Origin: Natronorubrum halalkaliphilum
GTDB taxonomy: Archaea > Halobacteriota > Halobacteria > Halobacteriales > Natrialbaceae
Length of the DNA stretch: 64,000 bases
NCBI RefSeq assembly: GCF_009834785.1
Contig: NZ_WUYX01000042.1
Location: 11,733 to 75,732, forward strand
Reading direction: 5' to 3'
In this document: positions 32,373-34,279 of the stretch, in pieces
Layout of the letters: every line of letters begins with the position of its first letter
How positions within the stretch are numbered: position 1 is the first letter of the stretch
Translations under genes and position numbers: made by a program
Notes under the pieces: model-generated
Database searches by the model: none
The model's input: only the letters and a program-made list of their open reading frames with translations
Told to the model about the DNA's origin: nothing

Positions 32373-32743
32373 GCCGTTCTGTTCGATCGTCTCGAACGGC
32401 CTTGTTGAAAGCCTCGACGTTCGATAGGTTTCAACGAGCCCCTAAATACAGGGCGCAAATGTGGTACTGTGTGAGTACCGATCAACACGGAAAGTCGAGC
32501 GGTCAGTACAGAACAAGCAGGTAACGGAGAGACGATCAATCCCTCCGATAGCTGTCAAAGACCGTCTGCTGAATATAGAGGATGAGCCTTATTTAGACGC
32601 AGCGGAGACTGGCTCTAGCGCTTCGTTCTCGAAGTACGAAACCACACCGTGGGGAACTCACTACGGGATTCTGTTCAGTTGAACTGGCTCCTGATCCGCC
32701 CGTTCTGAAGCGTCCAAACAAGGCCCTCAGTCTGTATTCACCT
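32373..32743. other. AT-rich intergenic region left of the IS110 element
   Basis: The stretch has lower GC than the host average and no codon bias like its neighbours. One open frame (32461-32682) is not convincing. It could be the remains of another insertion sequence. I see nothing else. Confidence 0.4.
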
Positions 32744-32926
32744 ATGGAAATTCTGCTGACTGACCAAACCACGCTTGCCAAGATAATTTTTCGGGCGACG
32801 AGGACTTGCTGTAGTTTTCGAGCGTAGAATCGACAGCCGGCGAACCGATGACTACTGAAACAGCTATCAGGCGGAAGACTTCTTGTTAGCGAGAGTAGTT
32901 ACTCACGCTGCCACCAACATGCCAAT

Positions 32927-32948
32927 GAGCGCCGCCGGGGCGGCGCTC
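32927..32948. terminator. Perfect 10-bp stem-loop at the end of the transposase gene
   Basis: GAGCGCCGCC (32927-32936) pairs with GGCGGCGCTC (32939-32948) around a two-base loop. The hairpin touches the stop codon of the transposase. It is a plausible transcription end or mRNA-stabilising structure, or part of the element's right non-coding region. Confidence 0.55.
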
Positions 32949-33945
32949 AGGCACTCACCCCTGGTGGATCGTACACTTCCTCACGGTCCAGCATGTGATA
33001 CATTGAAACCAGCAGCTTCCGGGCGGTTGCTACGATCGCTGTTTTCGAGTTCTTCTTCCGAGCTAACCGGTTGTAGAACCGGCTGAGATACTCGTCTTCG
33101 CACGTATGAACCGCTGAGTACGACGCTTGAACGAGCAACCATCGGACTCGTCCTGATCCTCGCTTCGAGATGCTTCCCTCAAACCGCGAGTCACCAGACT
33201 CGCGGATTATCGGGTTCAGTCCAACGTAACTGACGACCTCTTTGGCCCGGTCAAACCGGTCGATCTCTCCCAACTCCGCGTAAATCGTCAATGCCGTAAA
33301 GTAACTCACGCCTGGAATTGTCATCAGGAGCTGGGTCTCCTTCAGAGACCCAGCCCGTTCCTCAATCTCAGCTTCCAACGACTCCATCTGCTCGGTGAGC
33401 ACTTGAATGAGTTCCAGATACGATTCCAACAACGCATCCCACGGTGCCGGGAGCGAGAGTTCCACCAGGAACTCTCGTCCCTTCACACTCAGTGGTTTTA
33501 CTTTCTGAGTGATCCCGTGATCACTCAACAAGCCATGGATCTTGTTCGCGTACTCGGTCCGGTTCTCGACCAGCTTCTGGCGCCCGCGCACAAGTGCGCG
33601 GGCTTGCCGAATCTCGTCGGTTGGAACGTAACTTTCAGGAACCGATCCCAACCGAACCATCCGAGCGAGTTGTTTCGCGTCAACGCGGTCAGTTTTCTTG
33701 TCTGAGTCAGAGATCAGTTTTAATTCGCCTGGGTTGGCAACGGTCACATCCAGATACTCTGAAAGAGTATCATGGATGTGATAGTAGTTAGTGGTGGCTT
33801 CAAGTGCGGCTTTGGACCCAGCGTACTGCTGGGCGAAGTCGTCGAGGTTCGCGTTTTCGACGCGAACCTCTTCGACGATCTCACCATTTTCGTCCAATAC
33901 TGCGACTTGTGAGTACCGCTTGTGTACGTCGATTCCAATGAACAT
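32947..33945 (-). CDS. IS110-family DEDD recombinase (transposase)
   Basis: The 332-residue protein starts MFIGIDVHKRYSQVAVLDENG, the conserved RuvC-like N-terminus of the family. It continues with AALEATTNYYH and KTDRVDAKQLARMVR, which supply the acidic D-E-D-D residues. The C-terminal Tnp_20 domain has YVGLNPIIRESGDSRFEG and SKRGSGRVRWLLVQASY, which carries the catalytic serine region. It is full length, so the element may be active. A frame upstream to 33987 adds a short non-conserved extension; the ATG at 33945 is preferred. Confidence 0.93.
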   Translation of the reverse strand: MFIGIDVHKRYSQVAVLDENGEIVEEVRVENANLDDFAQQYAGSKAALEATTNYYHIHDTLSEYLDVTVANPGELKLISDSDKKTDRVDAKQLARMVRLGSVPESYVPTDEIRQARALVRGRQKLVENRTEYANKIHGLLSDHGITQKVKPLSVKGREFLVELSLPAPWDALLESYLELIQVLTEQMESLEAEIEERAGSLKETQLLMTIPGVSYFTALTIYAELGEIDRFDRAKEVVSYVGLNPIIRESGDSRFEGSISKRGSGRVRWLLVQASYSAVHTCEDEYLSRFYNRLARKKNSKTAIVATARKLLVSMYHMLDREEVYDPPGVSA

Positions 33946-33968
33946 TGGCCTCACCTTGGAACGCCGGT

Positions 33969-34136
33969 GCGTGAAACAGAGATTCACCTATACGGGCTTT
34001 CCCGACTGCCGCCAGGAGCGGCAGTCGGGCTGTGATGCCCAGGACTCGGCTTCCTACGCACTCGGACCAGTCAGCACCACGTGTTCTCGGACACGGAATA
34101 CAGCTCGGTCTCTTGCGTCCCATACTTGTTTCACGC
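33969..34136 (-). ncRNA. Candidate bridge RNA of the IS110 element
   Basis: The non-coding segment directly upstream of the recombinase is closed by a perfect 10-bp inverted repeat, GCGTGAAACA (33969-33978) and TGTTTCACGC (34127-34136). It contains a strong 11-bp hairpin CCCGACTGCCG (34001-34011) and CGGCAGTCGGG (34019-34029), and a shorter CGTGT-TCTCGG-ACACG hairpin (about 34079-34095). At 168 nt its size and place fit the bridge RNAs of IS110 elements (IS621 type), which guide target and donor choice. The guide loops have not been matched to the flanks. Confidence 0.45.
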
Positions 34137-34161
34137 TCTCATGGGATAGCAGAATTTCCAT

Positions 34162-34279
34162 CGAGTCAGCACGCTATTCCTATCACGTTCTGAGGGTTTA
34201 ACAGAGCCTCTCGGGCACGTTTTCTACCGACACGCGCCATCGAGAACGCATAAACGAGTAGAGGGTCTTAGAGACAGCT
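34162..34279. other. Region between IS110 and nop5
   Basis: About 120 bases. No gene is visible. It must contain the nop5 promoter; a clear TATA box is not evident. Confidence 0.4.

Follow-up and report, generated by a model that had tools for sequence, protein, structure and literature searches.

A probable bridge RNA upstream of the recombinase gene in a haloarchaeal IS110-family element with mixed IS110 and IS1111 features

The best-described relatives of the element reported here are IS621, of the IS110 group, and the seekRNA-carrying elements of the IS1111 group. The handshake bases of IS621 come after the right guides, and their pairing partner is the top strand (PMC11208158). The hallmarks of IS1111 elements are subterminal repeats with 7-nt and 3-nt extensions, and their seekRNA lies downstream of the gene, with noted exceptions that have upstream or double non-coding regions (PMC11187229). 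Two diverged IS1111-type elements, ISHvo10 (a name that suggests an origin in Haloferax volcanii) and ISAcp5, have long non-coding regions on both sides, with no RNA, guide, or target described for them in that source (PMC11187229). The existence of elements with two long non-coding regions was thus already known from ISHvo10.

Here, we analyzed a 64,000-nt stretch of Natronorubrum halalkaliphilum (the window; contig NZ_WUYX01000042.1), in which an earlier note had singled out a non-coding segment as a bridge RNA candidate. That candidacy is supported by a fold that covaries and by loops that match both the target flanks and the element junction, and the segment stood up to all checks for a bridge RNA that could be made on sequence. 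Based on these sequence comparisons, we are highly confident that window positions 33966-34140 (minus strand) encode the bridge RNA that serves a mobile element of the IS110 family, and this conserved upstream RNA very probably tells the recombinase where to insert. By sequence, the RNA comprises an outer stem and two arms, each with a split guide that meets at the TG core and gives the complement of the right half-site first, then a copy of the left half-site. One arm matches the genomic target ..GTGC-TG-AATACAG.., and the other the joined element ends ..ATAGG-TG-ACTCG... The element and its ends are as follows.

32741..34168, minus strand: whole element, TG...AGG, 1428 bp, with junctions set by comparing ~40 insertions in different flanks
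34167..34168, minus strand: left-junction core dinucleotide TG, common to both junctions (AG in the divergent member L253)
32739..32740, minus strand: right-junction core dinucleotide TG
34148..34161, minus strand: left subterminal inverted repeat ATGGAAATTCTGCT, 7 nt from the element end
32744..32757, minus strand: right subterminal inverted repeat AGCAGAATTTCCAT, 3 nt from the element end
34169..34172, minus strand: left target GTGC, same letters as the left target guide
32732..32738, minus strand: right target AATACAG, complementary to the right target guide

Comparison of insertions in unrelated flanks gave a left junction that reads ..GTGC-TGACTCG-ATGGAAATTCTGCT.. and a right junction that reads ..AGCAGAATTTCCAT-AGG-TGAATACAG... 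The subterminal repeats are perfect over 14 bp, and their extensions to the ends measure 7 nt (left) and 3 nt (right). Within the same genome, DNA searches recovered a second full copy of the element (~93% identity) along with fragments; other genomes of the host family yielded ~20 full copies (91-94% identity) and more divergent ones. The named near relatives of the element are Natrialbaceae, e.g., Natribaculum, Natrinema, and Natrarchaeobius; at the sequence level, all near relatives with organism names are Halobacteria, except one binned contig labelled Nitriliruptoraceae. No relatives were found in IMG/VR. The core dinucleotide varies among divergent members, being AG in L253 and TG and TA at the two junctions of L254. 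Near the right end, we also observed a ~143-bp MITE-like repeat (window 32583-32725, ends GGCCTTGTTTGGACGC / GCGTCTAAATAAGGC) with a second copy (99%) in the same genome (G000:C31:116318-116460), and an unoccupied near match to the element's own target, TGCTGAATATAGAGG (window 32567-32581, ~160 bp from the right end).

32947..33945, minus strand: IS110-family DEDD recombinase, 332 aa, identified by Pfam, NCBIfam, and fold match

The encoded recombinase is of the IS110 type, as first proposed, and contains both IS110 Pfam domains, PF01548 (DEDD_Tnp_IS110; E 4.3e-19) and PF02371 (Transposase_20; E 1.5e-23). It also matches NCBIfam NF033542 (E 6.7e-80; 268.8 bits, cut-off 140), and residues D6, E49, D86, D89, S250, and S253 are invariant in a ten-row alignment. 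The AlphaFold2 model is of moderate confidence only (pLDDT 71); the closest folds to this predicted structure, and its best PDB matches, are the bridge RNA complexes of IS621 and ISCro4, followed by TIGR-Tas. The protein is ~25-27% identical to the recombinases of IS4321/IS5075, and a 20-row tree, with supports of 57/71 on the deep branch, leaves placement in the IS1111 clade undecided. A GTG start at 33987 was rejected, as it falls within the left donor guide and the ATG at 33945 is where alignment with relatives begins.

33966..34140, minus strand: bridge RNA domain, outer stem 34127-34136 / 33969-33978, supported by a 73-relative alignment, covariation, and a covariance model
34065..34110, minus strand: target-binding loop, stem 34106-34110 / 34065-34069, apical hairpin 34091-34094 / 34081-34084
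34001..34029, minus strand: terminal hairpin of the donor-loop arm, 12 bp, 97.5% paired, 5 pairs changed on both sides

Most of the architecture described earlier was reproduced: a perfect 10-bp inverted repeat closes the segment (GCGTGAAACA at 33969-33978, TGTTTCACGC at 34127-34136), a smaller hairpin is present at about 34081-34094, and exactly 23 bases separate the segment end from the recombinase ATG at 33945. The larger perfect hairpin also exists, but spans 12 bp (CCCGACTGCCGC / GCGGCAGTCGGG, 34001-34012 / 34018-34029) rather than the 11 bp first given. Folding of 216 nt gave z = -2.8 (2/200 shuffles equally stable), and folding of the 175-nt domain gave z = -5.1, with relatives at -3.8 to -5.6 (60 shuffles each).

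The structure is conserved among copies, a check proposed in the earlier note, with a covarying fold in 73 relatives and a calibrated covariance model that recovers divergent members. Across the 73 aligned relatives, 96.3% of cells are paired, all helices together, and pairing falls to 22-43% when partner columns are slid by 1-3. Changes on both sides affect 15 of the 38 pairs (shuffled mean, 7.6) and 122 cells. None of these three values, the 96.3% included, was reached in 500 shuffles, a control that leaves relatedness in and is thus supportive, not to be taken as a probability. The terminal hairpin, in which two pairs reach 29 and 36 double changes, shows the strongest covariation together with the outer stem and the stems of the target arm; the target-arm stem and apical hairpin are 98.3% and 99.3% paired, with compensatory changes in both. 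A further inner helix, pairing alignment columns 27-30 and 87-90, was rejected for little covariation support. An RNAalifold helix (86-90/180-184) that rivals the outer stem was also set aside, since the outer stem has more compensatory pairs; both could form. Searches of Rfam returned nothing at the gathering threshold and nothing credible at E up to 5. The covariance model, R1, matched 15 of 295 phylum-wide genomes, all in the window's order (Infernal, stricter filters).

34096..34103, minus strand: right target guide CUGUAUUC, complementary to right-flank GAATACAG
34072..34077, minus strand: left target guide GUGCUG, same letters as left target plus core

The target-loop and donor-loop reading came from an early fold, and an unbiased scan was made only later as a check. 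The scan, run on 45 distinct insertions with 500 permutations, compared all RNA columns with all flank positions, which avoids choice by eye. Among the top complement results, target positions +1 to +7 faced RNA positions 65 to 59 (34097-34103) in strictly antiparallel order; all seven scored z 5.2-8.1, and the top six of the 1845 complement scores belong to this set. Target positions -4 to -1 matched RNA positions 85 to 88 (34074-34077) by identity, at z 7.1-9.0, the four highest of 1845 identity scores. These z-scores are raised by relatedness; neither the confinement of both signals to exactly two diagonals nor the evidence of the held-out cases below rests on the scores. Mean guide match was 5.98/7 (right) and 4.19/5 (left) in 42 deduplicated pairs, compared with permutation maxima of 4.14 and 3.00. 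The guide base at 34095, opposite the core T, is unpaired.

Guides appear in naturally reprogrammed forms, including AUCUGAA for TTCAGAT, AGGGUUU for AAACCCT, and CCCCUUU for AAAGGGG, and copies with guides far from the window's fit their own targets, not that of the window guide. A few copies match poorly (L106 at 2/7, two others at 1-3/7). R1 was built from the 73 relatives, and the divergent members it found were not among these; read by eye at R1-assigned positions, their right guides match their own flanks at 10/10 (L254), 8/8 (L251), 7/8 (L253), and 6/8 (L249). The left guides of L249, L251, and L254, also read by eye, fit their junctions, and that of L253 fits poorly. The proposal that one loop matches the target flanks was therefore upheld both by the unbiased scan over 45 insertions and in held-out members.

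34043..34048, minus strand: right donor guide CGAGUC, complementary to the left-end letters GACTCG
33985..33991, minus strand: left donor guide AUAGGUG, same letters as right end ATAGGTG
34070..34071, minus strand: putative handshake bases AC, equal to the first right-donor bases after the core
33983..33984, minus strand: putative handshake bases AA, which track target +1 and +2

The second loop fits the joined element ends and tracks natural donor changes, bearing out the idea that a loop would match the element junction. Left donor guide positions 172 and 174 track LD-4 and LD-2 in 44/44, and a donor change at RD+2 is tracked in 43/44. By eye, L253, with core AG, pairs a donor guide AUAGGAG with an element end ATAGGAG. 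Donor variation is small (~5 lineages), making the donor-guide evidence weaker than the target evidence. Single 6-mers such as GTGCTG and CGAGTC do arise by chance in shuffled RNA (~12% each), yet none of 20000 shuffles held all four guides together. That the matches reflect chance, DNA-level palindromes, or target-site homology brought along by the element is barely credible, given also that the guides keep their places in the fold, in held-out members too, and that no target duplication reaches into the loops.

Signals were also detected next to the guides. In the left donor guide, the base that follows the core (RNA position 178) is the same as target +1 in 41 of 45 insertions (z 6.5), and position 92 equals RD+2 in 44/44; position 91 gave no signal above shuffles. 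Within the RNA, pair 65:178 is complementary in 75/83 (shuffled maximum, 65), pair 64:179 in 72/83 (maximum, 67), and pair 117:92 in 77/83 (shuffled mean, 70.6; maximum, 75). None of the neighboring control pairs 65:179, 65:177, and 66:178 rose above its own shuffles, and control pair 64:178 was raised yet inside the shuffled range (64/83; maximum, 67).

32758..32946, minus strand: second non-coding block, on the 3' side, in which a covarying hairpin directly follows the stop codon; no target guide
32783..32793, minus strand: CGAAAAATTAT, possible archaeal BRE/TATA promoter, conserved in right ends (we only infer its promoter role)

The 3' block is conserved in its last 50-60 nt, including the promoter-like CGAAAAATTAT, and its hairpin shows compensated changes. 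It is also kept in recombinase-less mini elements, of which we identified 11 (L112, L113, L120, L121, L126, L129, L130, L132, L136, L137, and L138). These are 451-547 bp long, retain the RNA, both repeats, and the 3' block, and have no open frame of >137 codons. A search with one of them gave full-length matches at 11 places in 10 genomes, one of which (G420) also carries an intact full-length element (L106). The mini elements may have moved in trans, and they suggest natural two-component, in-trans bridge RNA systems. In the literature searched, whose coverage is incomplete, we found no report of a non-autonomous IS110 element with a guide RNA.

An IS1111-type arrangement, with the 3' block (32758-32946) supplying the functional guide RNA and the upstream segment acting as just a 5' leader, would fit the 14-bp subterminal repeats with 7/3-nt extensions, which are IS1111 hallmarks (PMC11187229), and the conservation, partial structure, and retention of the 3' block in recombinase-less elements. 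We nevertheless consider it very unlikely, because the scan used for the upstream RNA, which there gave both diagonals, yielded only scattered scores over the 3' block (at most z 5.1) and no diagonal. Similarly, the strong folding of the upstream segment and its end 23 nt before the start codon could indicate a structured mRNA leader that regulates recombinase translation and holds no guide. This is extremely improbable: a leader has no reason to copy each insertion's genomic flanks, the guide letters follow the flank, and the segment persists where the recombinase gene is absent. As a bridge RNA, the segment may serve as guide and leader both.

The motif read by the window-type guide, GTGCTGAATANA..GCGCGAATNTNGCAC, is intergenic and dispersed. 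Of 125 genomes of the family, 43 contain it and none the reversed control pattern. The motif GTGCTGAATACAnAGCGCGAATGTnGCAC occurs in these 43/125 Natrialbaceae-type genomes at sites such as L156-L165. Some guide variants seem directed against other insertion sequences, much as ISEc21 and IS4321 use other mobile elements as insertion sites. Of the reprogrammed copies, L060 lies inside a DDE transposase gene, and L048 and L068 lie beside one. Loci L060, L115, L048, and L068 are all inside or adjoining DDE_Tnp_1 transposase genes.

We propose that the element would be excised as a circle and that CGAAAAATTAT may act as a right-end promoter reading across the joined ends, which would yield both the RNA and the recombinase mRNA. 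The DEDD/serine recombinase would then bind the RNA, join target with donor, and exchange strands at the core. The position of the putative handshake bases, past the core on the left guides, suggests that exchange may begin with the bottom strands, a mirror of IS621. Tentatively, and with somewhat less than even confidence, we suggest a haloarchaeal lineage of bridge recombinases with ends and guide order of the IS1111 type, an upstream RNA, left-guide handshakes implying bottom-first exchange, and non-autonomous elements of ~450-550 bp mobilized in trans with their own RNA. For the guides, targets, handshake positions, and mini elements, no published description was found in the literature searched. 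The results would provide a fully defined archaeal bridge RNA family from high-salt hosts, with guide, core, donor, and target letters, and would extend bridge RNA-guided recombination to archaea in an unusual layout. They would also break the published correlation of RNA position with IS110/IS1111 type and open the testable question of whether strand-exchange order mirrors guide order.

Like IS621 (IS110 group; PMC11208160, PMC11208158), the element has a DEDD recombinase with DEDD_Tnp_IS110 and Transposase_20 domains, an RNA in the left end upstream of the recombinase gene, a target loop and a donor loop, both with split guides whose halves meet at a core dinucleotide, and handshake-like positions; IS621 is also the closest solved fold. 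Unlike IS621, its guide order is reversed in both loops, with the right guide first (left first in the IS110 group), and its handshake-like bases come after the left guides rather than the right ones. Its repeats are 14-bp and subterminal (2-3 bp in IS621; absent or very short across the IS110 group), its core is TG (CT in IS621), and it has a long 3' block and haloarchaeal hosts.

With the IS1111 group and its seekRNAs (ISEc11, ISKpn4, ISPa11, and IS4321/IS5075; PMC11187229), it shares subterminal repeats with 7-nt/3-nt extensions, guides in which the top-strand complement precedes the bottom-strand match, lack of target duplication, natural reprogramming, and insertion near or in other mobile elements. 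In contrast to the downstream seekRNA, the RNA here lies upstream of the gene, with none in the 3' block. ISHvo10 and ISAcp5, likened by description only, also have long non-coding regions flanking the gene on both sides. The earlier placement in the IS110 subgroup therefore holds for the upstream position of the RNA and fails for the 14-bp subterminal repeats and guide order, which are IS1111-like. Because the ends and order are of IS1111 type and the RNA position of IS110 type, with one departure from each group and the tree undecided, we file the segment as an IS110-family bridge RNA of mixed, haloarchaeal type.
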